This document shows, piece after piece, positions 6,837 to 30,407 of a stretch of DNA of 42,601 nucleotides. The number at the start of each line of letters is the position of its first letter. The stretch's first letter is position 1. The position numbers were made by a program, and so were the translations under genes. The stretch is from Streptomyces sp. RP5T (GTDB taxonomy: Bacteria > Actinomycetota > Actinomycetes > Streptomycetales > Streptomycetaceae). The notes below the pieces were generated by a model that had not been told where the DNA came from, made no database searches, and saw only the letters and a program-made list of their open reading frames with translations. Where the stretch lies: contig NZ_RSAJ01000012.1 in the NCBI RefSeq assembly GCF_003933965.1, positions 1 to 42,601 of the forward strand, given 5' to 3'.

Positions 6837-7769
6837 ATGTCTCCTGCCATGCAGGCAGCGGAGGAGCACGCTGCTCCTGCGACCGCTGCGGGGGCTCGGC
6901 TGCAGCAGATGCGGCGCCGGGTCCGACTGGGCCGCCTGGGCGTGTGGGCAGCGATGTCGGCCGGCCCCATCGCGCTGGCCGTCGCCGTGGCCACGCCCGC
7001 GACCGTGGTCCGTGCCGCCCCCGCGACGAAGCCGACCACCGTGAAGGCGACGGTGTCGGCAAACCCGTCGGGGTACGCGGCGGTGTTCCTCAGCGCGTGG
7101 CTGCGCAGCCGTGCAGGCGCCGAGAGCACTGCGCAGGCCCGGCTTGCGCAGTCGATGGCCCCGGATGTCGATCTTCCCGGGACGGCGGATGCGCAGCCTG
7201 AGCCGGACTCGGTCGTGGCGGTGCGCAGTGCGCAGCAGACTGGCACGGCGTGGTCGGTGACGGTGGCTGCGCAGTACGCCGACGGCTCGGTGCGCTACTT
7301 CGCGGTGCCGGTTGCCGCTGACTCGAGCGGCGCCTCGTTCACCGTGTCCGGTGCTCCTGGGGTGGTGGCCGGCCCGGCCCGTACCAAGGGGGTTCAGTCG
7401 CCGTACACGGTGGCCGTCCCGGCGGACAGCGATGTGTCGTCCACGGCTGGGGAGTTCCTGGCCGCGTATCTGGCGGGGGTTGGTGAGGTCGACCGCTACC
7501 TCGCGCCTGGCGTGAGTCTGTCGCCCGTCTTGCCCGCTCCGTACCAGACGGTCACGGTCCAGCAGATGCTGGCCGCCGACCAGGGGGCGGTCGCCGAGTC
7601 TGTCCCGGCGGACGGAACCCGGGTGCGGGTGGTGGCTGAGGTCGAGGCCCTCGACAGTGCGGGGCGGTGGCCGCTGGCGTACGAGCTGACGCTCAAGGCC
7701 CGCTCGGGCCGCTGGGAGGTCACCGGGCTTCAGTCCGGCACCGCGCAGGCGGGGGGTGCCCGGTCATGA
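6837..7769 (+). CDS. TcpC/VirB8-like conjugal transfer protein
   Basis: A 310-residue bitopic membrane protein and the first gene of the secretion operon. A cytosolic N-terminus with basic residues (RRRVRLGRLGVW) precedes one transmembrane helix (about 36-58, AAMSAGPIALAVAVATPATV). The extracytoplasmic part has two similar about 110-residue halves, each with a helix such as GYAAVFLSAWLRSR or GEFLAAYLAGVGEVDRY followed by beta strands (WSVTVAAQYADGSVRYFAVPV; YELTLKARSGRWEVTGLQ). That two-domain NTF2-like plan is the TcpC family, the Gram-positive relative of VirB8, which assembles the T4SS channel. TGGGAG lies 6 bases before the ATG. The stop overlaps the next start (ATGA). Part of the coding sequence carries the TGCGCA repeats, here mostly coding Ala-Gln pairs. 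Confidence 0.8.
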   Translation: MSPAMQAAEEHAAPATAAGARLQQMRRRVRLGRLGVWAAMSAGPIALAVAVATPATVVRAAPATKPTTVKATVSANPSGYAAVFLSAWLRSRAGAESTAQARLAQSMAPDVDLPGTADAQPEPDSVVAVRSAQQTGTAWSVTVAAQYADGSVRYFAVPVAADSSGASFTVSGAPGVVAGPARTKGVQSPYTVAVPADSDVSSTAGEFLAAYLAGVGEVDRYLAPGVSLSPVLPAPYQTVTVQQMLAADQGAVAESVPADGTRVRVVAEVEALDSAGRWPLAYELTLKARSGRWEVTGLQSGTAQAGGARS

Positions 7770-8098
7770 CCGGTGTGCTGCTCGCCGGGAAGCTCGACGA
7801 CCTTGGCAACTCGTGGATCAACATGTTCGAGGACTGGGCGACCAAGGGCCTGCAGGCCGGTCTGCTCATGCTCGTGGTCGTCATCATGATCCAAAAGTTC
7901 TCGTTGAAGGCCGGGATCGGTGCGCTGATCCTGATGGTGATCGCGCTCGGCCTGTACAACTCGCGCAACAGCCTTGCCGACATGTTCGAGGACGAGGTCA
8001 AGAACCCGTCGAAGTCGGCACCCGCTGTCCCCGGCATCGTGCACGGTGAGCCTTCGTCCGTCGGTGCGCACTCCGCAGGCGTCGGGGGTTGGCTGTGA
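7766..8098 (+). CDS. Small membrane protein of the T4SS operon
   Basis: A 110-residue protein starting at an ATG that overlaps the previous stop. Residues about 28-62 (LQAGLLMLVVVIMIQKF... GIGALILMVIALGLY) form two hydrophobic helices split by a short basic turn, followed by an acidic, proline-containing tail. The position between TcpC-like and TcpE/VirB3-like genes and the two-helix layout suggest a structural subunit of the inner-membrane complex or a VirB2-like subunit; no signal peptide is seen. Homologues are usually annotated only as membrane proteins. Confidence 0.7.
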   Translation: MTGVLLAGKLDDLGNSWINMFEDWATKGLQAGLLMLVVVIMIQKFSLKAGIGALILMVIALGLYNSRNSLADMFEDEVKNPSKSAPAVPGIVHGEPSSVGAHSAGVGGWL

Positions 8099-8667
8099 GC
8101 GCCGCCGCCACCGCCTCCGTGCGCGTGGGCCGCTTCTACACCTCGGCCCGCCGCCACCCGTGGGTGCTGGGCAAGGTGGCCGACTGGCGTATCCCGCTCG
8201 GCCCGTTCACGCCCGCGCAGATCCTCCTGGCCGTCGGCGGCGGCTTTGTTCTGGTCAAGACGATTGCGCTGTGGTCGTGGCTGGGGCCCCTCCCGATCGC
8301 CGCCTGGCTGCTGGGCATATGGGCGGTGCGCCGTCCGAAGATCGGTGGGCGCGCACCGCTCCCCGCCGCCCTGGGGTGGCTGCTGCTGATGTGGCAGCCG
8401 CGCGGGGGCCGGATCGGCGGTCGCGCGGCCCGCGACCACGGCGCCCGACCCCTGACCGGTGGCTTCGTCATCGAGGGCAACGCCCCGGCCCCGCCGATTG
8501 CTTCGGCTTCGCGGCCGCGAGCGGCCGAGCGTACGCAGCGCCGGGAGCCGTCACGGTCGCGGCCGCGGTCGGGCCCTCGCCCGGCGGCCGTCGCCACTCA
8601 GCCGGTCCGGCCGGTGTCGGGTGTGCAGCAGTTGCTCGCGCTCGCCAAGCAGGGGGGTGCGCGATGA
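8095..8667 (+). CDS. TcpE/VirB3-like conjugal transfer membrane protein
   Basis: A 190-residue protein. GTG at 8095 gives the GTGA overlap with the preceding stop; a TTG at 8089 is a less likely alternative. An N-terminal cytosolic part ends in RIPLGPFTPAQILLAVGGGFVLVKTIALWSWLGPLPIAAWLLGIWAV, two closely spaced transmembrane helices (about 42-85), followed by a basic, arginine-rich tail. A two-helix protein just before the VirB4-type ATPase fits the TcpE/PrgI/VirB3 position in conjugation operons, where it anchors the ATPase. The family call rests on position and topology. Confidence 0.65.
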   Translation: MSAAATASVRVGRFYTSARRHPWVLGKVADWRIPLGPFTPAQILLAVGGGFVLVKTIALWSWLGPLPIAAWLLGIWAVRRPKIGGRAPLPAALGWLLLMWQPRGGRIGGRAARDHGARPLTGGFVIEGNAPAPPIASASRPRAAERTQRREPSRSRPRSGPRPAAVATQPVRPVSGVQQLLALAKQGGAR

Positions 8668-11369
8668 GGGTGCCGATCCGTCATATCGCCGGGCACCTGG
8701 TGTGGTCGACGCACGGCAGTGTGTGGGCCGTCTACCGGCTGCACCCGGGTCCGGACGAGCAGGGCCGCCAGGAGGAGACCGTGCAGGGCACGTATGTGCC
8801 GGCCGCCGTTCGGGAGGAACAGCTCGCCAAGATCACTCATCTGGTGCGGTCCCTGACCGGGGCGCCGCGGCTGTTCGGCCTGTGCGCCCGGGTCGATCCG
8901 GGGGAGGTCGCGCTGCGCATGATCGAGGGCATCGAGCCCTCCGACACGCTGCCGGGCCAGACGCACCCGTGGGTGGAGAACGTCGAGGCCACGCTGGATC
9001 TGCTGGACGGACAGGAGATGCATCGGCGCACCCTGTGGCTGGCGGTCCCGCTCCAGACCGAGGGTGCCGGTCTGCAGATGACTGCGCAGGTGGGCGCGAT
9101 GTGGGCCGAGATCGCCCCGACGCTGGGCATGCGGCCGACGCCGGTTGCGCGGCGGGAAGTGACCGCGTACCAGGAGCAGGCTGCCCGGGTGGAGGCATCT
9201 CTCGCCGGCGGCGCCGCGTTCCGGCCCGCTCGCCCGGCCGAGATCGTGTGGATGGTCCAGCACGCGCTGCACCGCGGTATGGACGAGCCGCTGCTGGCCG
9301 AGGCCGAGAGCAGCGAGCTGTTCGGCGGGCAGGTCCGTGAAGGGGTGCTGCACTCCCCCAGCTACGCCGATCTCGGGCAGGTCCGCCTCCAGGAGGGCGG
9401 CATCGACCCGGACCTCGACGACGTCAACGAGCTCAAGAGCGCCGACCAGCTCACCCGGTCGGGCCGCAGGGCGTGGTGGCGGGTGAACACCGGCTCGCCG
9501 CTGCGCCGGCGGTGGATGCAGATCGAGTCCGACGCCGGCACCGGCTACCAGGCGCAGTTGGCGCTCGCTGAGTGCCCGCCCGCGGTGAGCGCGGATGCCG
9601 CCGATCTGTTCGCTCAGCTGGAGACGCTCGATTTTCCCGTCGACTACACCGTCGACCTCACCCTCGTGCCCGCGGAGAAGGCCCGCAATCAGGTGCGGCG
9701 CAAGAAGAACGAGTTGATCGACCAGGCCGACCAGTACGACGCTCGGCCCACCGGCATGCCCGCCTCGCTCACGGACGCCGCCCGCGACCTGGGTGAGCTG
9801 GACGCCCGCCTGTCGCGCACCTCGGTCGAGGTCGAGGTGCAGTCCGTGACCGTGCTGAGCGTGTGGGGGCCGACCGCGGCGATCTGTGACGCCCGTGCCC
9901 GGGCGTTGGCCTCGCTGCTTGGCAGTGCGGACTACCGGGCCGTGCGCCCGGCCGGCCTGCAGGAGGCGCTGTTCCTGCTCGGGCTGCCAGGCACCACGCG
10001 GCCGGGGGTGGTGCGGGAGTTCACGCAGCACCAGGTCTCGGAGGACTGGGCGTTGGGCGGTGCCTTCACCACGGCGGAGGTCGGCGACCCCAACGGCATG
10101 TTTCTCGGTCTGGACCTGGACTGCGGGACCACCCGTCCCGTCATGATCAACGTGGCGGATGCGCCGAAGCACGACGCCAGCGCCTCCCTGGGCATCGTGG
10201 GTGATCTGGGGGCCGGGAAGTCGGTCCTGCAGAAGCTGATCGCGGAGGCGGTGTGGGCGCGTGGCGGCTGCGCGATCTGTATCGACCGCACCCCTGTGCG
10301 CGAGTGGGCCGCTTTCGCCCGTACCGCAGCGAAGGGCCGTGTTCAGATCATCGACGCCGCGCGCGCCGAGGTGTCCATCGATCCGTTGCGCATGTTCGAC
10401 GGGCCCGAGGGCCGGCACTACGCGCTGTCCTACCTGACGCTGCAGCTCGGGATCGGCCCGATGAGCACGAACGGCGAGGTGCTGCATCACGCCGTGGAGA
10501 AGGCCGCGGCCAGCGACGCCCCCTCTATGCGCCGCGTGCTGGAGGTCCTGGAGGAGATGGCCACGAGCGAGGTGGGCAAGCGGCAGGACGCGGCGTCCAC
10601 GCTCGCCGGTCTCGTCCGCGTGGTCGCCACCAACTCGCTGGCAGCGATGGTGTTCGACCCCGCCCTTCCCCCGGTGCGCCTTGACGCCTCCAGCACGTCC
10701 GACATGATCGTGATCACGACCGCGGGTCTGAAGCTGCCGCCCAAGGCGGCGTTCGCCAATCCGGAGGTCCTGCACCAGCAGCCGCTGGAGGCCCTGATCG
10801 GGCGGGCCGTGCTCTACCTGATCGCGGCGCTGGCCCGGCAGACCGCGTTCGAGGACCCGGAGCGCTTCACCGCGGTGGTCGCGGACGAGTTGTACTGGCT
10901 CACCTCCTCTGCGGAGGGCACCGCGCTGATCCACGAGATCCTCCACGACGGCCGCAAGCACGGCGCCGGCCTGCTCGCCGCCTCCCACGACGCTGAGGAG
11001 CTCGGTCCCGACCGCGGGCTGATGGCCTACCGGGCGCTCGCCCGCACCGCCGATCGTGAACGCGCCCGCCGCGGCATGGAGTTCGTCGGGCTCGACCCGA
11101 ACGATCCGGAGCTGCTGCGGCTGGTGACCACTGGCCTGTCCCCCGTCGGGCAGCGCGGCCGCGAAGGGGAGTTCCTGCTGGCCTGCCCGCGGCAGAACAC
11201 GGGCCGGATCAAGGCCGTCATCCCCCGCATCGACCGGATCACCACCTCCATCACCACCACACCGGGCCACCGGACGAGCGCGAACGCCGCGCACGCCTAC
11301 GCCTCCAGCACGGCCGATACGGCCCGGCCCAAGGAACTTCCCAACCGTGATGTCAAGCCGCGAGTGTGA
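8664..11369 (+). CDS. VirB4-like conjugation ATPase
   Basis: A 901-residue cytosolic ATPase that powers assembly of the conjugation channel. ATG 8664 overlaps the previous stop (ATGA). The N-terminal half is the variable VirB4-type domain. The ATPase core follows, with Walker A GDLGAGKS (about residues 513-520), Walker B VVADELYW (about 736-743) and a downstream arginine-rich segment (ALARTADRERARRGMEF). Size and motif spacing fit the actinobacterial VirB4/TraC-like group. The last codons (about NRDVKPRV) and the stop lie inside the left end of the IS110 element, so the original C-terminus may have been cut and replaced. How much was lost cannot be judged, but the ATPase core is complete. Confidence 0.85.
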   Translation: MRVPIRHIAGHLVWSTHGSVWAVYRLHPGPDEQGRQEETVQGTYVPAAVREEQLAKITHLVRSLTGAPRLFGLCARVDPGEVALRMIEGIEPSDTLPGQTHPWVENVEATLDLLDGQEMHRRTLWLAVPLQTEGAGLQMTAQVGAMWAEIAPTLGMRPTPVARREVTAYQEQAARVEASLAGGAAFRPARPAEIVWMVQHALHRGMDEPLLAEAESSELFGGQVREGVLHSPSYADLGQVRLQEGGIDPDLDDVNELKSADQLTRSGRRAWWRVNTGSPLRRRWMQIESDAGTGYQAQLALAECPPAVSADAADLFAQLETLDFPVDYTVDLTLVPAEKARNQVRRKKNELIDQADQYDARPTGMPASLTDAARDLGELDARLSRTSVEVEVQSVTVLSVWGPTAAICDARARALASLLGSADYRAVRPAGLQEALFLLGLPGTTRPGVVREFTQHQVSEDWALGGAFTTAEVGDPNGMFLGLDLDCGTTRPVMINVADAPKHDASASLGIVGDLGAGKSVLQKLIAEAVWARGGCAICIDRTPVREWAAFARTAAKGRVQIIDAARAEVSIDPLRMFDGPEGRHYALSYLTLQLGIGPMSTNGEVLHHAVEKAAASDAPSMRRVLEVLEEMATSEVGKRQDAASTLAGLVRVVATNSLAAMVFDPALPPVRLDASSTSDMIVITTAGLKLPPKAAFANPEVLHQQPLEALIGRAVLYLIAALARQTAFEDPERFTAVVADELYWLTSSAEGTALIHEILHDGRKHGAGLLAASHDAEELGPDRGLMAYRALARTADRERARRGMEFVGLDPNDPELLRLVTTGLSPVGQRGREGEFLLACPRQNTGRIKAVIPRIDRITTSITTTPGHRTSANAAHAYASSTADTARPKELPNRDVKPRV

Positions 11370-12673
11370 CGGGAGGTGAAGTGTGGAAACACTCTCCGTC
11401 ACGGATCATCGCCCACAGAACGTTGAGGCGTCGCGCGAGGGCCAGCAGGGCTTGCTTGTGTCCCTTGCCCTCGCTTCGCTTCCGGTCGTAGTACGCCTTC
11501 GAGGCCGGGCAGCACTGCAAGCTGACCATGGCCGACAGGTACATGGTCCTGAGCAGACCGCGGTGGTAGCGCCTGGGCCTGCGGAGGTTGCCGCTGACGC
11601 GGCCGGAGTCACGGGGTCTGGGGGCCAGGCCGGCGAAGCCGGCCAAGCGGTCGGAGCTGCCGAAGGCGTCCATGTCGCCGCCAGTTGCGGCGATGAACTC
11701 GGCGCCGAGTTTGGCGCCCATGCCGGGCAGGCTCAAGATCACCTCGGCGTGCGGATGCTCGCGAAACCTGGCCTCGATCAGGGCGTCGAGTTCCGCGATC
11801 TCCTCATCGAGGGCCATCACCCCCTTCGCGAGACGGGCCACCATGGCGGCGGCCAGTTTCTCGCCGGGCAGCGCGGTGTGCTGGGCCTGCGCCGCCTCCA
11901 CAACCGTCTTCGCGATCGAGGCAGCACCCCTGACGCTTCGGTTCTTCAGCCAGGTCTCGATCCGTCTGGCGCCCGCGCGGCGGATCGCGGCCGGAGTCTG
12001 GTGAGCGGTCAGCAGCAGGACATGGCCCTTGCGGGTCAGGTCGAGCGACCGCTCCAACGCGGGGAAGATCTCCAGCAGTTGAGCACGAAGCCGGTTGATC
12101 TGCCGGGTGCGGTCGAACACCAGGTCCAGGCGGCGGGTGGTCAGAGTGCGCAGGTCGACGGCGATCTCGTCGCCGGGCCGCAACAGGCCGATGTCCCGGC
12201 GGACCCGGGCCTGGTCGGCGATGACGAAGGCATCCTTCGCATCCGTCTTGCCCTCACCCCGGTAGGTGGCCGAGGCCCGGTGGACCGCCAGACCTGTGAG
12301 GTAGGCGACGGGCTGACCGTGGCTGACCAGCAGGCCGATCAGCAGGGCAGCGCCGCCATGGTTGAGGTCGACGGCCCACAGCACATCGCCGGACATCTCC
12401 AGCACGTCGCCGATCAGCGCGAGGAGTTCAGTCTCGTCGTTCTGAACCCGGCGGGACAGCAGCCGCTTGCCTTCCGCGTTGATCACGACGCAGTGGTGGT
12501 GCGTCTTGCCGATGTCCACTCCGGCCCAGATCTCGGGCACGGTCACCTCCGCCAGCTCGTCTCACATCGATCCCGCAGACGACCTCGCCGACGTTGTCCT
12601 ACAGCAGCGATCGCAGTCGCATTTCCCAATTGGCGGTCGAGTCGTCGCGGGGCTCCGGGTGGCCAAGTTCCTT
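11331..12673 (-). mobile_element. IS110-family insertion sequence
   Basis: A complete-looking element around one DEDD transposase. AAGGAACTT at 11331-11339 is repeated inverted at 12665-12673 (AAGTTCCTT), suggesting 9-base subterminal or terminal inverted repeats. The exact ends and the core dinucleotide cannot be fixed without an empty site. It interrupts an otherwise tightly coupled operon, between the VirB4-like gene and the 129-residue gene, on the opposite strand. Confidence 0.7.
11353..12546 (-). CDS. IS110-family transposase (DEDD recombinase)
   Basis: A 397-residue recombinase. The N-terminal RuvC-like domain shows the acidic residues of the DEDD group: VDIGK near residue 11, VDLNHGG near 60 and KTDAKDA near 100. 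The C-terminal Tnp20 domain has LPGMGAKLGAEFIAATGGD, the serine-containing PRPRDSGRVSG and the conserved LLRTMYLSAM. The frame is intact and of normal length, so it may be active. IS110 recombinases are guided by a structured RNA from the element's own non-coding end. It is convergent with the VirB4-like gene and overlaps its last 17 bases. Confidence 0.9.
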   Translation of the reverse strand: MTVPEIWAGVDIGKTHHHCVVINAEGKRLLSRRVQNDETELLALIGDVLEMSGDVLWAVDLNHGGAALLIGLLVSHGQPVAYLTGLAVHRASATYRGEGKTDAKDAFVIADQARVRRDIGLLRPGDEIAVDLRTLTTRRLDLVFDRTRQINRLRAQLLEIFPALERSLDLTRKGHVLLLTAHQTPAAIRRAGARRIETWLKNRSVRGAASIAKTVVEAAQAQHTALPGEKLAAAMVARLAKGVMALDEEIAELDALIEARFREHPHAEVILSLPGMGAKLGAEFIAATGGDMDAFGSSDRLAGFAGLAPRPRDSGRVSGNLRRPRRYHRGLLRTMYLSAMVSLQCCPASKAYYDRKRSEGKGHKQALLALARRLNVLWAMIRDGECFHTSPPVTLAA

Positions 12674-12778
12674 AAGCCATCGAGCGGTCTCCCTCATGAC
12701 AGCCATACCCGGGGCCCCTGGGCCCTCCGATCTTACGAACGACCAGATCAGACCCCCTTGAAAGGTAGGACACCTCTC
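12547..12778. other. Non-coding end of the IS plus leader of the next gene
   Basis: This gap contains the non-coding 5' side of the transposase gene (12547-12673), where IS110-group elements usually encode their bridge RNA. It also holds the right end repeat and about 100 bases of leader, ending in AAAGGTAGGA, the ribosome-binding site for the gene at 12779. I see no gene in it. Confidence 0.45.
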
Positions 12779-13168
12779 ATGACCACGTCGTCGTTCAGCT
12801 CAACCCACGCCCGGCGCCTCGCTCGTGCGGCAAGCACCCTGATCGTGATCGCCCTCCCGACCGCTCTGCTCGCCCTGGTCGTGGGGACGGGGGTGCCCGA
12901 GCTGTGGTGGCCGCAGACCGGCAAGGCCTTCGCCGCCGACCAGCCTCATGCAGAACCAGCTCGCCAGGATCCCTGCGATCTGGTCGTGGGCCCGGCCAAG
13001 GAGCACTGCGAGCCCGGCCGCACCCCCACCACGACACCGTCAGTCCCCGCCCCTGAAGCACCCCACCGGGGCGCCAGGGCGGCATCGATAGTTGTTCCAC
13101 CCATGGCGGGCCTGGCCGCCATCGTCGTGTGGCGGCGCCGGCGCTCGGCCGTACATAGGCGGCGCTGA
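12779..13168 (+). CDS. Small two-helix membrane protein of the T4SS operon
   Basis: A 129-residue protein. An N-terminal hydrophobic segment, TLIVIALPTALLALVVGTG (about 20-38), acts as signal anchor. A central proline/threonine-rich exposed stretch follows (RTPTTTPSVPAPEAP) with a cysteine pair. A second helix and a strongly basic end (AGLAAIVVWRRRRSAVHRRR) resemble a stop-transfer anchor. ATG 12779 has AAGGTAGGA at a spacing of 8 bases. The stop TGA directly abuts the ATG of the VirB6-like gene, so both are probably co-translated. No family recognised. Confidence 0.65.
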   Translation: MTTSSFSSTHARRLARAASTLIVIALPTALLALVVGTGVPELWWPQTGKAFAADQPHAEPARQDPCDLVVGPAKEHCEPGRTPTTTPSVPAPEAPHRGARAASIVVPPMAGLAAIVVWRRRRSAVHRRR

Positions 13169-15946
13169 ATGTGGCGCCCAGACCGCGGCACGCTCCGCTC
13201 GGCCGGTCTCGTCGTCCTGCTCTCCGGAGTGTTCCTTCTGGTCAACAGCCAGGTCGTGTACGCGGCGAGCAGCAGCAGTGAGACCGGGGACCTCCTGGCC
13301 CCGCTGAACATCAGCTCCTCCGAGGGTGTGCCGATCAACGGCTACGAGTTGGGCGCGGACGGGGGCTCGATCGTCAGCTTCAAGACGCAGGCCCTCGCCT
13401 TCACCCTGTCCGGCCTGTTCACGATCATCCGGCTGTTGGTCGGGCTGGCGGGCTGGGCCATCGAGGTCGCTCTTCGGTTTCCGCTGCTGAAGATCTTGAT
13501 CGTCCCCGCGCAGAAGGTTGCCGACGCCTACAACAACGTGGTCGTCGACAACCTCGGCATCAAGGGTCTCTTGCTCGCCTGGGCTTTCGTCTTCGCCGGG
13601 TTCATGATCGTGCGCGGGCGTCTCGGCCGCGGTCTCGGCGAGATCTTCCTGACTCTGCTGATCGCGGCGTTCGCGGCCTCGACCTTCGTCCGCCCGGACT
13701 ACCTGCTCACCGAGAACGGGCCGCTGGGCCAGACGCAGCAGGTGGCCGCCGAGGTCGCCCAGGAGAGCGTCAACTCCTACGACTGGGGCGGCAAGATCGC
13801 CAGCACCGACCCCTGCGCGGGCATGGCCGGCAACGCTGAACTCCAGTGCCTGGAGCGTGAAGAGGAAGCACCCGTGTCCGCCGCGGACGTGGCCCGCCCT
13901 CTGCAGGACTCGATCACCAACGCCTTGGTGGTCAAGCCGTTCATGCTGCTGGAGTACGGGCGCATCCTCGACCCCGCCAAGAAGTCCGACCGCGAGGCCT
14001 ACGCCGTTCATCTGAAATGGGTCTCGGGCGGATACAAGGCCTATACCGGCGACGGCGATGACGGTGGCGCGGACTGTTCTCTGGTCGCCTCGGCGGCGCG
14101 GAAGTACTGCGAGGAGCAGAACGAGAAGCTGAAGAGGGTGAAGCACAACTGCTCGCTGATCAAAGGCCCGGCCAAGGAGATCTGCGAGCAGGACGGCATT
14201 TCCAAGGAACTCACCGGCAAGCTGCCCGAGCTGACGCCTGGCGGTGAACTGCTGGACGCCGCCAGCCCGGTGGTGTCCGAAGAGGACCAGGAGTTCGCCG
14301 CGTTCCTGGCGGACATGAAGAAGGCCGGGGACGTCGGCAAGGCGTGCGCCGCCTACGCGGAACAGCCCACCTGGTGGCGGGTCGGCGGCGCCTTCCTGCT
14401 GCTGATCGCCGCCCTGTTCATCTGCGGCATGCTCCTGTCCAGCGCAATCGTGCTGCTCGGGACACAGGGCGTGTGTGCCGGGGCGGCCGCGGTCGGTGGC
14501 GTCACCTTCATCGCGGGCATGCTGCCCGGGCCTGCCCGCCAGTCGGTGTGGAAGTGGCTGTCGATCTGGGGCATCGCCATCATGACCATGGTCGGTGTCT
14601 GCGCGTTCGTCCCATTCTTCGGCATCGCCATCGACGCCACCATCACCAACGGGCCCGACCTGATGGTGGAACGCATCCTGCTGATCGACGTGCTGGCCAT
14701 CGCCGGCGCGGCAGGGCACCGCCGCCTGCTGACCGGGATCACGTCCTTCGGCCATCGGATGGCGATGCGGATGCGGTACGCCAAGGTCGGCGGGACCCAT
14801 CTGCCCGGCGACACCTCCGAGCTCGGCGCCGCTCTCGCCATGCACTCCCCCGGCGCGATGGGCGGATACGGCGGCGGACTGCGCGCCTTCACCAGCGGCG
14901 GGGGCGGCAGGTTCGGGATGCTCGGCACCCGCCAGCGGCTGATGGGTGCCCTCACGTCGCTGGTCGACGGCGCGGGCCTGCCGGTCGACACCGGGCGGAT
15001 GTTCGCCGATGCCACAGCCGAAGCTGGGCGAGGCCTCGCTCCGCTGGCCGCGGCGGCGGCCGGCGCCGGTCTCGGCGCGCGGCTCGGCGCGAAGGGCACG
15101 TACGGGGTGCTCATCGGCCGCCGTCCGGATCGGGAGCAGCTGGCCAAATGGCAAAAGCCCGTCGCCGATGGTGACCCGGGCACCGGCGGGCCCCCGGACG
15201 GCGAGGGCTCAGGCGGCATCGGGCCACGCCGGCCAGGAGGGCCGCCCGACCGGTACCGCAACGAGGAGGGCCAGGTCGTCGACCGTGACTCAGGGCAGGT
15301 GCTGCACGACCAGCACGCCGACCGCACGCTGCTGTCCACCCGTGCCCACAACCGTCTCGTCCGCTTCCGTGGATACCGCATCGCGAGCCGTGGCGGCCGG
15401 GCTGGGTACGGAGCGACTGTCGGGTTGCCAACCAGTGTGCGCCGGGCTCGTGCTGGCGGCTCGCGCTACGCGCACGACGCCCGCCAACAGGTACGGGTAT
15501 GGGCCAACACGGTGCGTGAGGACGGCCGGGGGTGGACGGAGACAGGCCGGCAGGTAGCGCGCGCAAATCGGGAGAGCGGCGACAACGGCGGGATGGGCCC
15601 CTTCACTAGCCGACGCCTGCGGACCCGACCGACATCGACTTCGTCGTCGACCAGGTCGTCCCGCCTCGACCGCACCGGACCGGCCTCGCCGCGCGCAGGT
15701 GCGCCTACGGAGCCCAGCTCGACTCTGGGACCGGCGACACGGTTCGGGGGCAGTCCGCGCACGCGTCCGAGTCCGGAACCGGATGCCCCGGGCGGAACGA
15801 CGAGCAGCAGCGGCCGTAGTGAAGGGCCTGAGCTGATGCGTGAGGTCATGCGCCGAAGCGCAGCTAATGCAGAACGCGCGCGCCAGGCCGAGGCCTTGCG
15901 GGAGATGCGAGAGCGGTGGGGCAACGAGGGCGGTGAGGACGAGTGA
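13169..15946 (+). CDS. VirB6/TrbL-like polytopic membrane protein
   Basis: A 925-residue protein and likely inner-membrane core of the conjugation channel. A signal-like N-terminus (about 10-33) is followed by membrane helices near residues 70-105, 130-165 (GIKGLLLAWAFVFAGFMIV; EIFLTLLIAAFAASTF), and a second group near 395-525 (FLLLIAALFICGMLLSSAIVLLG, WLSIWGIAIMTMVGVCAFVPFFGIA, ILLIDVLAIAGAAG). A large exposed loop with several cysteines lies between the groups. The C-terminal about 350 residues are hydrophilic, rich in Gly, Pro, Arg and Ser, and probably cytosolic. Two helix clusters and the position between VirB4-like and transglycosylase genes are typical of VirB6-type proteins in actinobacterial elements. 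Its stop overlaps the next GTG start. Confidence 0.75.
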   Translation: MWRPDRGTLRSAGLVVLLSGVFLLVNSQVVYAASSSSETGDLLAPLNISSSEGVPINGYELGADGGSIVSFKTQALAFTLSGLFTIIRLLVGLAGWAIEVALRFPLLKILIVPAQKVADAYNNVVVDNLGIKGLLLAWAFVFAGFMIVRGRLGRGLGEIFLTLLIAAFAASTFVRPDYLLTENGPLGQTQQVAAEVAQESVNSYDWGGKIASTDPCAGMAGNAELQCLEREEEAPVSAADVARPLQDSITNALVVKPFMLLEYGRILDPAKKSDREAYAVHLKWVSGGYKAYTGDGDDGGADCSLVASAARKYCEEQNEKLKRVKHNCSLIKGPAKEICEQDGISKELTGKLPELTPGGELLDAASPVVSEEDQEFAAFLADMKKAGDVGKACAAYAEQPTWWRVGGAFLLLIAALFICGMLLSSAIVLLGTQGVCAGAAAVGGVTFIAGMLPGPARQSVWKWLSIWGIAIMTMVGVCAFVPFFGIAIDATITNGPDLMVERILLIDVLAIAGAAGHRRLLTGITSFGHRMAMRMRYAKVGGTHLPGDTSELGAALAMHSPGAMGGYGGGLRAFTSGGGGRFGMLGTRQRLMGALTSLVDGAGLPVDTGRMFADATAEAGRGLAPLAAAAAGAGLGARLGAKGTYGVLIGRRPDREQLAKWQKPVADGDPGTGGPPDGEGSGGIGPRRPGGPPDRYRNEEGQVVDRDSGQVLHDQHADRTLLSTRAHNRLVRFRGYRIASRGGRAGYGATVGLPTSVRRARAGGSRYAHDARQQVRVWANTVREDGRGWTETGRQVARANRESGDNGGMGPFTSRRLRTRPTSTSSSTRSSRLDRTGPASPRAGAPTEPSSTLGPATRFGGSPRTRPSPEPDAPGGTTSSSGRSEGPELMREVMRRSAANAERARQAEALREMRERWGNEGGEDE

Positions 15947-17720: not shown

Positions 17721-18077
17721 CGGACCAGAACTCCGAGGGGCCCTTCGGTCAGGCACTCGGTCTGATCACCGGACTCGTCGTAGCCGTCGACGGTCGATAT
17801 CCACGAAATCGTGGCATCAGGGGCGGCGCTCACGACGGGCGATCCAGAAGCCGCTGATGCGGCGGGCGGCCTCAAACTCGCGGCGGAAGCGTTCCCGTGC
17901 TCCGGATTCGGTGGCCTGGTCGGCAGGGAGTGTCTTGACCGCGACCCGGCGGCCGCCGGGCGACTGGGCGAGGTAGACAGTGCCCATGCCGCCGGCGCCG
18001 AGGCGCTCCAGGACGAGGAAGGGCCCCAACCGTTCAGGGGTTCCCGTGCTCACTGCGGAGTCCTCCTTGTGGGCCAT
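17721..18077 (-). pseudogene. Relic of a Ser/Thr protein kinase (N-terminal fragment)
   Basis: The minus frame from 18077 begins a typical actinobacterial Hanks-type kinase: LGPFLVLERLGAGGMGTVYL with the glycine loop, then VAVKTLP with the invariant lysine, then RERFRREFEAARRISGFW. The frame stops at 17817 after 86 residues. The next frame continues with kinase-like sequence (SPVVSAAPDATISWIST), so there is a frameshift near 17850. Catalytic loop, DFG motif and everything after are missing; the remainder was probably deleted where the secretion operon now ends. It cannot encode an active kinase. Confidence 0.75.
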
Positions 18078-23976: not shown

Positions 23977-24869
23977 GCCTGTCCGTGCCCGGCATGCTGC
24001 TGGGCTCCCTGACCACGCTCGGCGGCACGCTCGCGGTGCGCAGCCTGCTGCCCCAGCGGACCCCGCTCGATCAGGTCCTGCGCCGCACCCACGCCCCCGC
24101 ACCACGCAGCGCGTCTATACCCTCGGCGAAGGGCCCCGCGCGGTGGGCGGACCGGGTCGGGGCCCGGCTGATGGAGACCGACGCGTTCGTAACCCGGCTG
24201 CCCGCCCGGGACCTGAACCTGCTGGAGATGGCGCCCGCCTCGCTGCTGGGCCGCTGCGTCCTGTATGCGCTGGGCGGGTTCCTCATCCCGCAGTGGATCA
24301 CTCTCCTGTTGCGGTTGGGCGGCCTGACGCTGCCGTTCGTCGTCCCGGCGGCCGCCGGGCTCGGTGTCGCGCTGTTCATGGTGTTCAAGTGCCTGGACGA
24401 CGTCCGGGGCAAAGCCACCGGCGCCCGCCTGGAGTACCGCTACTACATCGCCTCGGTCCTGGAGCGGGTCGCTCTGGCCCGCAACTCCGATGCCGGCGCG
24501 GCCGAGGCCCTCGCCCGGGCCGTGGAGTCGGGGGACGGACGTGCCGCCGTGCGGATCCGGGACACCGTCGAGCACGCCCAGCTGGCCGGGGTCAGCCCCT
24601 GGGATGCGCTCGGCGGGCTCGGCAGCGAACTCGGCGTGCCCGACATCGCCCGCCTGTCCGCCAGCCTGTCGCTCGCGGGTGAGGAACAGGCCGCCGTCTA
24701 CGACCAGTTGGAGGCCCAGGCCGAGGTCGTGCGGCGGGGTCTGCTCTCGGATCGCAAGGAACAGGCGAACGTGGCCACCGAGAAGATGCATGTGCCGTCG
24801 CTGGCGATCGTCTTCCTGATGGCCGTCTTCCTGCTGGCACCGGCCCTCGTCCGCATCCTGGCGCTCTGA
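23973..24869 (+). CDS. TadC-like inner-membrane platform protein
   Basis: A 298-residue GspF/TadC-family protein starting at GTG 23973 (GTGA overlap with TadB). It has helices near 5-25 and a pair near 90-135 (LYALGGFLIPQWITLLLRL; PFVVPAAAGLGVALFMVFK). The T2SSF domain includes YIASVLERVALARNSDAGAAEALARA, ARLSASLSLAGEEQAAVYDQL and AEVVRRGLLSDRKEQANVATEKM. The C-terminal helix is LAIVFLMAVFLLAPALVRIL. The end is followed by a 48-base gap before the pilin, where a separate pilin promoter or processing site could lie. Confidence 0.85.
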   Translation: MSLSVPGMLLGSLTTLGGTLAVRSLLPQRTPLDQVLRRTHAPAPRSASIPSAKGPARWADRVGARLMETDAFVTRLPARDLNLLEMAPASLLGRCVLYALGGFLIPQWITLLLRLGGLTLPFVVPAAAGLGVALFMVFKCLDDVRGKATGARLEYRYYIASVLERVALARNSDAGAAEALARAVESGDGRAAVRIRDTVEHAQLAGVSPWDALGGLGSELGVPDIARLSASLSLAGEEQAAVYDQLEAQAEVVRRGLLSDRKEQANVATEKMHVPSLAIVFLMAVFLLAPALVRILAL

Positions 24870-24917: not shown

Positions 24918-25124
24918 ATGCACACCGTACGAATCCGTTTCTCCGCCGTGGTGCGGGCGCTGCGCCGGCACGGCGCGGTGATCCGCGCGCAGTCGAAGGA
25001 CCGTGGCGCCTCGGCGATGGAGTGGGGGCTGATCCTGGTCGCCGGGGGCACGATGGTCGGCGTCGTCTACGCGGCGGCCAACACCACGGTCGGCGAGAAG
25101 GTCACCCAGATTCTGGGCTTTTGA
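24918..25124 (+). CDS. Flp-like pilin
   Basis: A 68-residue prepilin. ATG 24918 has GGAGGAT 6 bases upstream, the best ribosome-binding site of the pilus operon, fitting a high-expression major subunit. A basic leader (RIRFSAVVRALRRHGAVIRAQSKDRG) is followed by GASAMEWGLILVAGGTMVGVVY: a glycine, then a glutamate at about position +5 and a long hydrophobic helix, the Flp/Fap arrangement for prepilin peptidase cleavage after G. The mature peptide is about 40 residues. No TadV-type prepilin peptidase is encoded in the window, so it must be supplied from elsewhere. Confidence 0.8.
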   Translation: MHTVRIRFSAVVRALRRHGAVIRAQSKDRGASAMEWGLILVAGGTMVGVVYAAANTTVGEKVTQILGF

Positions 25125-25126: not shown

Positions 25127-25543
25127 ATGCCGGCGACACGCATAGGCCGATGGGGGCAGCTGGCGGGCAGGCAGTGGTGGCGGGACGACCGCGGCTCCAC
25201 AGCCCTGGACATGTCGATGGTCGTCCCGCTCGTCTTCCTGCTGGTGTTCACCCTGATTCAGGGCGGCATCTGGTTCCACGGCCGCTCCGTGGCGCACCAT
25301 GCCGCCCAGCAAGCCGTGGACGCGCAGCGGGCCTACGACGCCGCGCCCGGTGCCGGAGCGGCGGCGGCCGGAGAGTTCCTGGCCCGGATGGGTGGCTCGC
25401 TGAACGGCACAGCGGTGCGGGTCAGCGACGACGGCGAGACCGTGACCGTCTCGGTGGAAGGCACGGTGATCAACCTGGTGCCGGGGTGGAGCGGCCACGT
25501 CCGGCAGAGCGTGAAGGCCCCCGTCGAGAAGTTCCGCCCATGA
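25127..25543 (+). CDS. TadE-like pseudopilin
   Basis: A 138-residue protein starting two bases after the pilin stop. WWRDDRGSTALDMSMVVPLVFLLVFTLIQGGIWF shows the TadE signature: a DRGS cleavage-like site, then a hydrophobic N-terminal helix with an acidic residue (here Asp at the +5-like position). The remainder is a small globular domain with VRVSDDGETVTVSVEGTVIN. Minor pilins of this kind initiate or cap Flp pili. Confidence 0.8.
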   Translation: MPATRIGRWGQLAGRQWWRDDRGSTALDMSMVVPLVFLLVFTLIQGGIWFHGRSVAHHAAQQAVDAQRAYDAAPGAGAAAAGEFLARMGGSLNGTAVRVSDDGETVTVSVEGTVINLVPGWSGHVRQSVKAPVEKFRP

Positions 25544-26043
25544 GGTGGCGAGGGTGCCCGGACGGGCCGGAGCGTGACCGCGGCAGTGCCGCCCTGAGTC
25601 TCGCGATCTTCGTGCCGGTGGCGCTGGTGCTGATCGGCTTCGTGATCGCGTGCGGGCGGGTGGCGCTGGCCGAGGGGGCCGCCGACGCGGCCGCGCGGGA
25701 CGCGGCGCGTACCGCCTCGCTGGCGAGCGACCCGGCCACTGGCGAGGCTGCGGCCCGCCAGGCGGCGCAGTCCAGTCTGGCCAGCTCCGGGATCCACTGC
25801 GCGGGCATCAGCGTCGAGGTGGACACCAGCGGGCTGTCCGCGCCGGTGGGGCAGGCGGCCCGCGTGACGGCCACCGTGTCGTGTACGGCGCCGCTGAGCG
25901 AGCTCGCGCTGCCCGGTGTCGGCGGGTCCACGACCCTCACCAGCACCAAGACGTCCGTCGTGGACACGTGGGCAACGAGAGCCGCTGGGTTCGCGGACGA
26001 GGTGGCATGGAGGACGAACCGGCCCGTGGAGGGCGGGCGATGA
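25540..26043 (+). CDS. TadE/TadF-like minor pilin
   Basis: A 167-residue protein, ATGA-coupled to the gene before. RDRGSAALSLAIFVPVALVLIGFVIACGRVAL is again a DRGS site followed by a hydrophobic helix, but without the usual glutamate. The mature domain contains two cysteines (GIHCAGI and TVSCTAP) that may pair outside the cell. The stop overlaps a possible ATG at 26040, where one would expect the next tad gene; instead the DNA holds a leftward gene. Confidence 0.8.
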   Translation: MRWRGCPDGPERDRGSAALSLAIFVPVALVLIGFVIACGRVALAEGAADAAARDAARTASLASDPATGEAAARQAAQSSLASSGIHCAGISVEVDTSGLSAPVGQAARVTATVSCTAPLSELALPGVGGSTTLTSTKTSVVDTWATRAAGFADEVAWRTNRPVEGGR

Positions 26044-26446: not shown

Positions 26447-26890
26447 ATGACCCGTTGGCGTCGATGGCTACAGCTCTATGCCGGCGGCCGGGACCGGGGC
26501 GGCATGGAGCTGTTCTACGCGGGGACCGTCCTGATCGCGTTCCTCATCGTCGGCCTGGTCATCGATGGCGGGCTTGCCCTGGACCGGATGTCGGACGCTG
26601 ACTACGTCGCGCAGGAAGCCGCGCGGGCCGGCGCCCAGCAGATCGACCCGGGCCAGGCCATCACCGGCGACGCGATCGTGGTCGACCCTGACGCCGCGCA
26701 AGCCGCCGCCCGTACCTTCCTCGACCGGGAGGGCGTCGATGGGGAGGTCGCCATCGCCGAGGACGGGCAAAGCCTCACGGTGACCGTGCGCGATACCTAC
26801 CGCCCCTACTTCGCGTCCCTGATCGGTGTCGGTGAGATGCCGGTGACGGGACACGGCACTGCCACGCTGCTTCACCAGCCCGGAGGCTGA
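26447..26890 (+). CDS. TadG/pilus-assembly (TadE-like) protein
   Basis: A 147-residue protein. GMELFYAGTVLIAFLIVGLVIDGGLALDRMSDADYVAQEAARAGAQQID matches the start of TadG-like Flp-pilus proteins: a transmembrane helix, then a helix with DGG...D...A.EAARAGAQ. The C-terminal half is a small strand-rich domain (VAIAEDGQSLTVTVRDTY). It is the last recognisable pilus subunit gene and leads, after 4 bases, into the LysM-BTAD gene. Confidence 0.75.
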   Translation: MTRWRRWLQLYAGGRDRGGMELFYAGTVLIAFLIVGLVIDGGLALDRMSDADYVAQEAARAGAQQIDPGQAITGDAIVVDPDAAQAAARTFLDREGVDGEVAIAEDGQSLTVTVRDTYRPYFASLIGVGEMPVTGHGTATLLHQPGG

Positions 26891-26894
26891 CCCC

Positions 26895-29800
26895 ATGCCC
26901 CACTCCCCCATGCCTGTGCGCCGTCGGAATCGCTCGTGGTCCCGGGCCGTCGTGCGGGGCCTGTTCGCGTTCGTCGTGCTGGCCGTGCTGGTCGTCGGGG
27001 TGCCCGCGCTGTTGCTCGCCGTCGGCACCTTGCCCGCGAGGGTGCCGACGCTGGACGGGGCGCGCGAGGTGCTGCTGAGCCCGGACGATGACGGCTCGGG
27101 GCTGTTGACGGCGATGACCGTGGCGGCGTGGCTCGCGTGGCTGTGGCTCGCGGTCCCCGTCCTGATCGAGATCGTCGCCGTTGTGGCGCGGCGGACGACG
27201 CCGCGGCTGCCGGGCATGGTGACCGGTCAGCGTCTGGCGGGGTTCTTGCTGGGCAGCCTCGTGCTGGCGTCGCCCGCGGCCGCGGCCAGTGCCGCCACCC
27301 CGGCGGTCGCCGCCACCGCGACCCACGTGCCGTCGGCCAGCCCGGCAGCAGGAACCCAGCCGAGCACCGTTGCGGCGACTGCGGTCGCGCAGGAGACGGC
27401 AACAGCCGGGAACTCCCGCGAGTTCACTGTGGGGGCCGACGACAGCACCTGGTGGGAACTGGCCGAGCAGCTGCTGGGGGACGGCACGCGCTACACCGAA
27501 CTGCAGCGCCTCAACCCCGACGTGCCCACCACGGCCACGGTGGTGCCGCAAGGCACGACCCTGCGCGTGCCCGGCAGCGCCACCGCGCATGGGGAGGCGT
27601 CCGGCACGGGCATTCACACACAGCTCGTCTCCACCACACAGGACACCGTCGGCCACGGCGTGGATGGCGGGGACGAGGTGGTCACCGTGGACTCCGGCGA
27701 TTCCCTCTCTCAGATCGCGGCGAAGGAACTGCACGACGGCAGCCAGTGGCCGCGCCTGTTCGAGGCCAGCAAGCACACGGCGCAGCCCGACGGCCTACCG
27801 AAGATCACAGACCCGGATGTGATCTACCCGGGGCAGCAGGTCACCGTGCCCGGGACCGCATCCGAACGTCCCGAGCCCGAGCACCGCCGCGAGGACGTGG
27901 AGAACGGCGCCGGGAACGAACAGTCCGCTCCCCCGGCTCCGCACGACAGCGAGCGCGACTCGGGCCCCGGCGCCGGAGGTGGTGAGGCAGCTACTCCCAG
28001 TAGTGCCGCTACCCCGGGAAACCAGGCTCCGGCTCCCGGAGAGCGAAGCCAGCCGGATTGGTTGCCGAGCCAGGGTGCAGGGCATGGCGGACCGTCGACC
28101 GGCAGCCGCGGGCCGGCGGCAACCTCCTCGGTTGTGCCGTCCGCATCGGCCACGCCCATAACGCCGGCGTCCCGGGCGCCGTCCTCCGATGCACCCGCGT
28201 CGTCGCCCGTGGGTCAAGGGCTGCAGCTGCGGATGGTGCTGGGCGCAGGTGCGCTTCTGGCCGCAGCCGTGACCGGCGCGCTCGCCACGCGCCGCGTGCT
28301 GCAGCGCCGCCGCCGCAAGCCGGGTGAGGCGATCGCGATCGCCTCGGAGACGTCCTTGGCCGAGGCGCAGTTGGCGGCCGCCGCCGAGCCAGACGGATCG
28401 GCCCGTCTGGATGTGGCCCTGCGGACGATGGCCCACCTCGCGGAGGACGAAGCCGGCCTGCCCCCGTTGCGGGCCGCCCGCATCGGGACCCGCACCCTGG
28501 CAGTGCTGCCCGAGGACCCGGCGGCGGATCCGCTGGCGCCGTTCTCAGCAGGACGTGACGGTTGGTGGGTCCTGGCGCAGGATGCCGAGCTCCTGGCCGA
28601 AGAGGAAGCCAGTGAGGTGCCGGCACCGTATCCGGGGCTGGTGACTCTCGGCAGCACCAGGGACGGTGACCTCCTGCTGGTGAACCTGGCCCAGTTGCCC
28701 GCGCTGCTACTCGACGGCGATCCGACACGCGTCACAGAAGTGTGCACGTCGCTCGCGATGGAGATCGGGATGAGCCCGTGGGGCAGCGTGGTCGAGCTGG
28801 TTGCCGTCGGATTCGGTGAGGACCTGCCCCGGCTGCTGCCGACCTCTCGGATCATGCACATGCGGGAGCCTGCGCACGCCCTGCGGGACCTTTCCGAGCG
28901 TCTGCTGGAGGTGCACCAGATGCCGGAGACCAGCCACCAGCCCTATCTGCTGCTGTGCGCGGCATCTCTCGACGGGGACACGGCGTGGCAGGTCGCCGAC
29001 ATCATCGACAAGGCCCGGATTCCGGTATCGCTGATCGCCCCCGCGGCCGCGGCGGCAGCACACTTTCCCGATGCTGAGATCCTCAACGCCGAGCTTGACG
29101 AGCCGCAGCAGCTGGACTGCGCCGGCATCGAGATCACGGTGCAGCGACTTGAGCGCGCCGCCTACCAGCAGATCGCCACGGCACTCGCCGTCTCCGGTCA
29201 GCCGGCAGCGCCGGCCGAAGGGCCGTGGGAGGACGTCCCGGACGAGCCTGAGCCCGAGATGACTCCCCCGGCCACCAGGACACAGAGCGATGACCAGGGC
29301 ACTAACGCCTACGCCAGCACCGCGCCCCAGGCCTTGGTCACGCCGGTCGCGTCGAAGGCGGTGGACGACAGCGAGGTGTTCCCCGCCCTGTTGGCCGCGA
29401 CAGCGGATCCGGCCGGGCTCCGCCTCCTGCCCACCGCGCCAGCTCAAGGTCAGGACGACCGCCACGAGGACCAGATGCGCGGCAAAGACCCGGCAGAGAC
29501 CGAAGCGGCAGAGGAACCCGATGTGCAGCTCCCGTTGGCGGACGACGACGGAGGTGCTGCAGAGGTAGAGGCACACGACCTCCATGCCCCGGAGATCCGT
29601 GTCCTGGGCCCCGTCGAAGTGGACGGCGTGGCCGCCTCGGGGCACGGACCGAGGATCGCGCAACTCGCGGCATTGCTCTACTTCCGGCCCGGTCGCTCCG
29701 CCGATGCGCTGTGCACCGACATGGACCCCCTCGCCCCGTGGAGCTCGAGCACTCTCAACGCCAGGCTGCGGGGCCTACGCAGCGCCCTGGGCAACGACCC

Positions 29801-30407
29801 GGCCGGCGACACGTACGTTCCGCGCCGCCGCACCGGCGACGACCCCTACCGCCTCTCCCCCGCCGTGCGGTGCGACTGGACGAGATTCCTCCAGCTCGCC
29901 GAACACGCGCTGCCCCAGGGACCGGCGGGGCTGCCAGATCTGGAGAAGGCCCTCGCAATGGTGCGGGGGCGGCCGTTCGGTTCGAGGCCGCTGCCCTGGG
30001 CCGAGCCCTACCAGCAGGAGATGATCACGAGGATCATCGACGTCGCCCACACGGTGGCCACACACCGCACCCCGGCAGGCCCGCACCACGACCTCACCGC
30101 GGCCCGACAGGCCATCGCCACCGGCCTCGACGTCGACAACAGCGCCGAGCTCCTCTACAGGGACTGGATGCGGGTTGAGCATGCGGCCGCCAACCGCTCC
30201 GGCCTGCACACCGCGATCACCCAGGTCCAACAGGTCAACAGGTCCCTGGACTGCGATCTCGAGACGGAGACGGAGCAGCTGATCAACGATCTCCTACACA
30301 GGGGAGGCTCGGCACTGCGCAAGGCCCCGAGGCGGGATCACAGGATGCGCGGCGGCCTACCGGTGGGCGGCGACGCCCCCGGGCTGCGTAAGCGAACAAA
30401 TCACTGA
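26895..30407 (+). CDS. Membrane LysM protein with a C-terminal BTAD-type domain
   Basis: A 1170-residue multidomain protein. Three hydrophobic segments are near 20-45, 73-98 and 112-132. Two LysM-type modules follow: about 170-230 (STWWELAEQLLGDGTRYTEL ... VPQGTTLRVP) and 262-320 (DSLSQIAAKELHDGSQWPRL ... IYPGQQVTVP). A Pro/Gly/Ser-rich linker leads to another helix at about 443-463 (MVLGAGALLAAAVTGALATR), then an RRRRK stop-transfer. The cytosolic part has a helical region, an acidic linker, and a final region (EIRVLGPVEVDGV ... LYFRPGRSADALCTDMDPLAPWSSSTLNARLRGLRSALG) resembling the winged-helix plus BTAD domains of SARP-type regulators. This suggests a wall-anchored protein that couples the envelope or pilus to a cytosolic output. 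GGAGG lies 10 bases before the ATG. Confidence 0.8.
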   Translation: MPHSPMPVRRRNRSWSRAVVRGLFAFVVLAVLVVGVPALLLAVGTLPARVPTLDGAREVLLSPDDDGSGLLTAMTVAAWLAWLWLAVPVLIEIVAVVARRTTPRLPGMVTGQRLAGFLLGSLVLASPAAAASAATPAVAATATHVPSASPAAGTQPSTVAATAVAQETATAGNSREFTVGADDSTWWELAEQLLGDGTRYTELQRLNPDVPTTATVVPQGTTLRVPGSATAHGEASGTGIHTQLVSTTQDTVGHGVDGGDEVVTVDSGDSLSQIAAKELHDGSQWPRLFEASKHTAQPDGLPKITDPDVIYPGQQVTVPGTASERPEPEHRREDVENGAGNEQSAPPAPHDSERDSGPGAGGGEAATPSSAATPGNQAPAPGERSQPDWLPSQGAGHGGPSTGSRGPAATSSVVPSASATPITPASRAPSSDAPASSPVGQGLQLRMVLGAGALLAAAVTGALATRRVLQRRRRKPGEAIAIASETSLAEAQLAAAAEPDGSARLDVALRTMAHLAEDEAGLPPLRAARIGTRTLAVLPEDPAADPLAPFSAGRDGWWVLAQDAELLAEEEASEVPAPYPGLVTLGSTRDGDLLLVNLAQLPALLLDGDPTRVTEVCTSLAMEIGMSPWGSVVELVAVGFGEDLPRLLPTSRIMHMREPAHALRDLSERLLEVHQMPETSHQPYLLLCAASLDGDTAWQVADIIDKARIPVSLIAPAAAAAAHFPDAEILNAELDEPQQLDCAGIEITVQRLERAAYQQIATALAVSGQPAAPAEGPWEDVPDEPEPEMTPPATRTQSDDQGTNAYASTAPQALVTPVASKAVDDSEVFPALLAATADPAGLRLLPTAPAQGQDDRHEDQMRGKDPAETEAAEEPDVQLPLADDDGGAAEVEAHDLHAPEIRVLGPVEVDGVAASGHGPRIAQLAALLYFRPGRSADALCTDMDPLAPWSSSTLNARLRGLRSALGNDPAGDTYVPRRRTGDDPYRLSPAVRCDWTRFLQLAEHALPQGPAGLPDLEKALAMVRGRPFGSRPLPWAEPYQQEMITRIIDVAHTVATHRTPAGPHHDLTAARQAIATGLDVDNSAELLYRDWMRVEHAAANRSGLHTAITQVQQVNRSLDCDLETETEQLINDLLHRGGSALRKAPRRDHRMRGGLPVGGDAPGLRKRTNH

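Follow-up and report, generated by a model that had tools for sequence, protein, structure and literature searches.

Known conjugation systems and the RP5T locus

Accounts of conjugation in Streptomyces usually centre on TraB. The stretch of DNA considered here, hereafter the window, is the entire contig C333 (42,601 bp) of the draft genome of Streptomyces sp. RP5T (9.59 Mb in 1,346 contigs), on which the genes of a type IV secretion system (T4SS) core and of an Flp/Tad pilus lie side by side. We put at slightly better than even the chance that the window represents the greater part of a cassette for conjugation, carried by actinobacterial plasmids that are usually linear, in which the T4SS core works jointly with an Flp/Tad pilus dedicated to it. 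The TraB/Spd systems also move plasmids between mycelia; as outlined in PMC12857230, they do so with an FtsK-like translocase and Spd proteins, and differ from the cassette in having neither T4SS channel genes nor a pilus.

The Tn916/pCW3-type T4SS (MPF_FA) shares with the cassette the genes for TcpC, VirB4 (TcpF-like) and an SLT/NlpC-P60 enzyme, and probably that for a VirB6-like protein. The cassette differs in its putative coupling ATPase, in the added Tad pilus and in having no detectable TcpE or classical relaxase; no Tad genes are annotated in the stretch of pCF10, which has a T4SS of the Tn916 type. A linear plasmid of Cutibacterium acnes was described as having tad genes next to those for VirB4 and TcpC, as in the cassette; it differs in its FtsK-like protein, and the functional link is left open in the authors' account (PMC5696575). 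Linear plasmids of M. avium are described as carrying VirB4 and TcpC within a type VII secretion system cluster (PMC12803027), and integrative and conjugative elements of the T4SS type are reported from Streptomyces and actinobacteria (PMC9513070, PMC3218068). An earlier note on the window had set its machinery against the TraB description; with T4SS-type elements of Streptomyces (PMC9513070) and the Cutibacterium combination (PMC5696575) already in print, the arrangement is not wholly new. As a precedent for joint action, T4SS parts and a type IV pilus are described as cooperating in mating in IncI R64 and PAPI-1, which differ from the cassette in being Gram-negative, in T4SS class and in a pilus that is not of the Tad type (PMC12857230). 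In the open-access literature, to which the search was confined, we saw no study that treats the Streptomyces cassette as one entity, whether by experiment or by description.

A distant relative of the cassette is found on the plasmid pI of S. mirabilis (L060), which carries TcpC, VirB4 and the genes cpl and rlx (see below) in the same order and differs in an M23 peptidase in place of the SLT-NlpC enzyme and in a VirB4 only 36% identical. According to the account in PMC9195940, pI conjugates into S. lividans and Kribbella, has no TraB homologue and encodes TcpC together with an AAA ATPase that resembles SCP1.146. A search of pI for FtsK/TraB domains also gave no match.

Conservation and selection in Streptomyces relatives

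All 47 relatives of the locus from named genomes belong to Streptomyces. On the linear plasmids L053, L054 and L055 the same order of 22 genes was observed, with tcpC-s1-s2-virB4-s3-virB6-slt-hypA-cpl-rlx as its first half and hypB-agbp-cpaB-tadZ-tadA-tadB-tadC-flp-tadE-tadE-tadG-lysM as its second (s3 is unannotated in L055). Judged by this shared order, the window carries a variant of a 22-gene cassette that is conserved among relatives. Tad genes were found inside the fetched stretch at 32 of the 47 loci; five more (L006, L010, L019, L021 and L027) have a TadA that shares contig and strand with virB6 and follows it by approximately 13–24 kb, and in L049 it lies approximately 84 kb away. A TadA of the plasmid type is located on another contig in L025, L028 and L032. 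The stretches of L033 and L046 end inside virB6, and in the genome of L046 cpl, rlx and TadA follow one another on a separate contig. Matches to the first tadE gene in relatives were obtained with other reference sequences, as the query taken from the window began off frame (25150). Besides the cassette, plasmid L054 carries CRISPR genes annotated as a set resembling type III-B (cas6, Cmr3; 40139–49001).

Selection was assessed from the ratio of nonsynonymous to synonymous substitution (dN/dS) against L008 and L018 for 12 genes, from tcpC through part of tadA. The values ranged from 0.10 to 0.51, the maximum being that of hypA, with 0.10–0.12 for virB4, 0.11–0.16 for tadZ, 0.14–0.15 for cpaB and 0.20–0.24 for the compared part of tadA. 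Since the gene order recurs in relatives and dN/dS is low in the 12 genes tested, the arrangement goes beyond chance. The pairing of a T4SS with a Tad locus is a real feature, and a stronger one than the earlier note had stated.

Co-occurrence of VirB4 and TadA on actinobacterial plasmids

A tblastn search with VirB4 returned 420 plasmid records. From an evenly spaced listing of these, 23 of the 29 actinobacterial rows H121–H149 were sampled (H131, H135, H136, H145, H148 and H149 were excluded), with VirB4 rows of lower coverage left out. One T2SSE/TadA-type gene was present in each of the 23 plasmids, which come from six families (Streptomycetaceae, Promicromonosporaceae, Microbacteriaceae, Nocardiaceae, Micrococcaceae and Brevibacteriaceae); this count describes only plasmids that carry this VirB4, and it uses a domain, PF00437, that alone cannot separate TadA from VirB11. 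The addition of four plasmids hand-picked as VirB6 or TadA search matches brought the count to 27 of 27, with 23 of these records deposited as linear. Many of the Streptomyces records, and also W07 and W08, showed neighbouring Tad genes or matches to TadA or TadZ.

The two genes lay within 25 kb of each other in 19 of the 23 sampled plasmids, and TadA was on the same strand and downstream in 18. For 26 records (three hand-picked plasmids included, W05 left out for want of VirB4 coordinates) the median distance was 15 kb, 22 pairs being within 25 kb and 21 on the same strand with TadA downstream. Random placement gave an expectation of 8.5 pairs within 25 kb against the 22 observed, and none of 20,000 trials reached a number as high.

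For the large LysM gene that ends the cassette, 50 plasmids have a homologue (E <= 1e-30), and at least 42 of them carry VirB4 among the VirB4 matches listed (60 of 131 records). Conversely, VirB4 is at least 50% identical on 42 plasmids, and 41 of these carry the LysM gene, which is also found beside a T4SS lacking Tad genes. A similar T4SS-Tad-LysM order is seen on Curtobacterium pCff119, where an FtsK protein replaces cpl-rlx and an A24 peptidase follows LysM. When MOB-suite was applied to 97 plasmids with VirB6, 76 were typed as non-mobilizable, 21 as mobilizable and none as conjugative.

The T4SS block

The earlier note had placed a conjugation channel and a pilus side by side between 6837 and 30407 on the + strand, and profile searches confirmed both there. 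All genes of the two blocks are on the + strand unless stated otherwise. The T4SS block begins with TcpC (VirB8-like; 6837..7769; PF12642, E 3.7e-9, above cut-off), followed by two small membrane proteins, s1 (7766..8098), whose conserved position is that of TcpE/VirB3, and s2 (8125..8667), which is conserved in relatives. The VirB4-type ATPase (8664..11369) matches PF12846 (AAA_10, E 1e-37), its best NCBIfam model being TcpF (NF052333, E 3e-24, under its curated cut-off). An IS110-family insertion (11338..12769; transposase on the - strand at 11353–12540; PF01548/PF02371) sits between virB4 and s3. Comparison with S. cavernae L008 places its breakpoint at 11337/12770, so that only the last codons of virB4 have been replaced by IS110 sequence.

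The small membrane protein s3 (12779..13168) was recognised by homology to that of L054. It is followed by the VirB6-like polytopic membrane protein (13169..15946), which occurs in 47 related loci and has nine predicted transmembrane segments; it has no Pfam match, and its NCBIfam match to a CD3337/EF1877 mobilome membrane protein (E 6e-5) is far under cut-off. A lytic transglycosylase with an NlpC/P60 peptidase domain (VirB1-like; 15943..17094; PF13406, SLT_2, and PF00877, NLPC_P60, E 2e-22) and hypA (17091..17720), which is conserved in relatives and has one N-terminal transmembrane segment, complete the block. The T4SS parts previously proposed are thus upheld by profile matches for TcpC, VirB4 and the SLT/NlpC-P60 enzyme, and weakly for VirB6. 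TcpE is left with its position only, as s1 had no match among the Pfam or NCBIfam hidden Markov models (HMMs) and s2 none in NCBIfam. The picture of two long gene runs agrees with the common strand and with neighbours that mostly overlap or abut, the T4SS run being broken by the IS110 copy.

The Tad block and the prepilin peptidase

The Tad run opens with two genes conserved in relatives, hypB (18401..18973) and agbp (18973..19815; annotated as 'ATP/GTP-binding' in relatives, no family match). Next come CpaB/RcpC (19816..20553), with a SAF domain (PF08666, E 2.7e-7), and a TadZ-like protein (20557..21459) with no HMM match, assigned by position and homologues. The TadA ATPase (21632..23056) matches PF00437 (T2SSE, E 1.7e-20). 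TadB (23053..23976) has no Pfam match and is 76% identical to the protein at the same position in L055, and TadC (23973..24869) matches PF00482 (T2SSF, E 2.8e-7). The Flp pilin (24918..25124), without an HMM match, was identified by its signal motif DRG/ASAMEW, and is followed by two TadE-like pseudopilins (25127..25543, PF07811, E 5.8e-11; 25540..26043, PF07811, E 5.4e-5) and a TadG-like protein (26504..26890, alternative start 26447; PF13400, E 1.8e-4, 22.2 bits against a cut-off of 22.3). Sites that we take to be DRG-type leader sites were read in Flp, both TadE proteins and the TadG-like protein. The large LysM membrane protein (26895..30407; PF01476) forms the end of the cassette. The near-complete Flp/Tad locus described previously (CpaB, TadZ, TadA, TadB, TadC, Flp and TadE/G) was therefore recovered, with TadZ, TadB and Flp recognised by homology, position or motif.

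Instead of building a mating pilus, the Tad genes might lend parts to the T4SS, with TadA as a VirB11-like ATPase, or serve in DNA uptake. TadA is the sole T2SSE-family ATPase on the contig, and VirB11 models are its next best, as would suit such a loan. Its best NCBIfam model is nevertheless TIGR03819 (E 6.6e-47, under its own cut-off), ahead of VirB11, and the whole pilus set is kept, pilin and pseudopilins included, rather than tadA alone. Systems of the Tn916 type, moreover, function without VirB11. DNA uptake has a parallel in Micrococcus luteus, whose transformation requires a tad locus, as cited in PMC5696575. Taken together, these alternatives are considered very improbable.

As the earlier note had remarked, no prepilin peptidase is encoded in the window; the search it proposed for TadV found a single A24 match in the genome, on contig C508. 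At least one A24 gene is present in all 43 relatives' genomes, and it is plasmid-borne in 12 of 27 plasmids. Among genomes with a match to the chromosomal type of TadA, an A24 gene lies 8–22 kb away in 15 of 16. Because the peptidase, which need not be part of a Tad locus, is available in the genome and in those of relatives, near the chromosomal-type TadA, the host enzyme probably matures the plasmid pilin in RP5T.

The putative coupling ATPase and rlx

In most relatives the T4SS and Tad blocks are separated by cpl, which encodes a TrwB/HerA-like ATPase of approximately 870 aa and is often followed by rlx. In the window a deletion has left a scar there: a 5' remnant of cpl (17705..17791, +) retains approximately 85–90 bp of its start, and approximately 3.6 kb is gone relative to S. 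cavernae L008. The window itself begins with the C-terminal tail of a displaced cpl (1..51, +), an open frame whose stop overlaps the start of rlx (51..968, +). The searches for a coupling protein and a relaxase that the earlier note had suggested led, respectively, to cpl, the only copy found in the genome being an open frame running off the end of the adjoining contig C487 (L058 10663–13238), and to the relaxase-like gene rlx (Replic_Relax, PF13814, E 4.9e-23), which lies outside the range considered earlier. MobT or another classical relaxase was not recognised in the cassette. The tail at the start of the window is of a kind that would complete this frame; no sequence overlap was found between C487 and the window contig. 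In S. canus DSM 40017 (L064), cpl (94%) and rlx (91% identical) are contiguous and have the same neighbours as on C487. In L008 and L018 cpl is central and rlx lies upstream without an adjacent cpl. All 43 host genomes searched contain cpl. A DprA-like DNA recombination-mediator gene was also noted on C487 upstream of cpl (L058 951–2108).

Two explanations for the missing central cpl were rejected. An assembly artefact alone does not account for it, as in S. canus DSM 40017 a single contig shows the displaced layout too, and the space from hypA to hypB holds no complete cpl. Total loss of the coupling gene is contradicted by the cpl on C487.

The RP5T copy of the cassette may be impaired, given that the local cpl is deleted, that a cpl-rlx pair is found upstream instead and that virB4 is separated from s3 by the IS110 copy, which is possibly polar. 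The stronger proposal, that this copy is decaying and has lost transfer, is set against remaining cassette genes that are open frames, the second cpl-rlx pair, whose layout is kept in S. canus, and the low dN/dS; it is regarded as possible, though rather unlikely.

The cpl protein has a Walker motif and one predicted N-terminal transmembrane helix, and no Pfam or NCBIfam family match. With VirB4 already present, a role as coupling ATPase would be the simplest reading of cpl. Foldseek with a model of the L008 protein (predicted local distance difference test, pLDDT, 50) gave TrwB as the best match (prob 1.00, E 0.002), and VIA gave Z scores of 11.6 for DndH, 10.2 for VirB4, 8.9 for TrwB, 8.6 for Cag-beta and 8.1 for HerA, alongside 8.7 for the unrelated oxidase EncM on the N-terminal part. 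The hhalign comparison of cpl with TrwB was not significant, nor were those with the L062 coupling protein, R388 VirB4 and the pCF10 FtsK-like protein, the last giving the best probability (4.8%). Sequence searches of the PDB found no match for cpl or VirB4 and five weak ones for rlx, three of which are winged-helix regulators.

The rlx product has a winged helix and a second domain of uncertain fold; its model, like that of cpl, is of low confidence (pLDDT about 50). Foldseek listed MspJI and Cap4 at the top (E 0.05 and more), and VIA instead ranked unrelated proteins and winged-helix regulators, giving no confirmation of a PD-(D/E)XK-like nuclease.

Among 20 Streptomyces plasmids with the cassette or its relatives, a Replic_Relax protein was found on 18 and an FtsK/TraB-type domain over cut-off on four; among seven plasmids from other genera the counts were none and all seven. 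From this distribution it is suggested that the coupling unit is exchangeable. At locus L062, which has no cpl, the product of a gene upstream of tcpC is annotated as VirD4-type. Neither C333 nor C487 has an FtsK/TraB match; those in the genome lie on eight other contigs, unassigned to a replicon.

Exchange between the two blocks

Distance-matrix correlations, computed without species-tree control, were 0.74 for virB4-cpl, 0.83 for cpl-rlx and 0.89 for cpaB-tadZ, and only a modest 0.37 (p 0.003) for virB4-tadZ. With high correlations within the blocks and a low one between them, the T4SS and Tad blocks appear to be paired yet to exchange alleles and re-assort in evolution. The VirB4 of the window is nearest to L054 (88%) and its Tad genes to L055 (62–81%), with LysM at 56% to L054 against 50% to L055; such a switch of nearest relative along the cassette is a sign of module exchange.

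Proposed role of the pilus in mating

It is likely that the Tad pilus has a role in mating. In the proposed mechanism, TadA, TadB and TadC would assemble Flp pilin matured by the A24 peptidase encoded elsewhere in the genome, and the resulting pilus would contact and hold a recipient hypha. The SLT-NlpC/P60 enzyme would open the peptidoglycan, TcpC, VirB6, VirB4 and the small membrane proteins would form the channel, and cpl would supply it with DNA that rlx had prepared. In that case Streptomyces plasmids would be transferred via a T4SS and not by TraB alone. The earlier proposal of a transfer mode other than TraB gains from the presence of a T4SS and pilus on mobile DNA, from the small share of Streptomyces plasmids (four of 20) with an FtsK/TraB-type domain and from the transfer of pI, which lacks its own TraB; the part of the pilus in it is something that we infer.

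Alternatively, the Tad pilus could be co-inherited cargo for adhesion or colonisation, roles described for Tad pili of other bacteria in PMC5696575, with the T4SS alone transferring the plasmid. Besides the limits given above for the co-occurrence counts and the structural matches of cpl, several points weigh against a joint function, some of them directly in favour of cargo. No plasmid-type TadA was found at E <= 1e-50 in the genomes of L026, L029, L041 and L047. The virB6 of L041 is broken and hypA is absent there, and rlx was not found in the stretches of L026 and L029, the closest rlx of the L029 genome being broken and on another contig; L047, by comparison, has an intact-looking T4SS-cpl-rlx and LysM. 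Tad neighbours were not seen for W09, W10 and W25–W27. The low virB4-tadZ correlation and the re-assortment of the blocks would suit separable units, as would the 232 kb between the T4SS and Tad blocks of pI, whose host is moreover described as having a chromosomal TraB homologue and a VirD4/TraC/VirB4 set off the plasmid that may help transfer (PMC9195940). The cargo explanation does not, on the other hand, readily account for a T2SSE/TadA-type gene on every sampled VirB4 plasmid in six families, mostly close by and on the same strand. The near-constant company of LysM and VirB4 also speaks against it, in a way that favours the cassette rather than Tad alone. We consider cargo unlikely, and retain joint action of T4SS core and pilus as the preferred reading.

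Other features of the window

A complete-looking three-gene Lamassu defence system was detected at 37313–42226 (-), with LmuA (E 6e-200), LmuB (E 2e-196) and LmuC (E 3e-91). A DUF2637 protein is encoded at 30996–32861 (-; E 2e-46), a family that in L062 and L066, too, has a member near the cassette and that is present on plasmid L053. The stretch 3128–4726 (-) has weak matches to HTH_36 and MarR-like helix-turn-helix domains and is possibly a plasmid replication initiator; it and its neighbour (1680–3245) are conserved upstream of tcpC in L008, L018, L040, L045 and L005.

Implications for actinobacterial plasmids

More broadly, and only tentatively, the cassette could stand for a distinct class of conjugation system on mostly linear actinobacterial plasmids, made up of a T4SS, an obligatory Tad mating pilus and an exchangeable coupling ATPase, namely cpl with rlx in Streptomyces and FtsK- or VirD4-like proteins elsewhere. 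In such a class, which would have no classical relaxase, the DNA may be piloted by Replic_Relax or by a terminal protein covalently bound to its ends. If the cassette works, a large group of giant actinobacterial plasmids would be self-transmissible along a pathway that escapes current tools, and the passage of linear plasmids across two cell envelopes would become testable by simple gene deletions.

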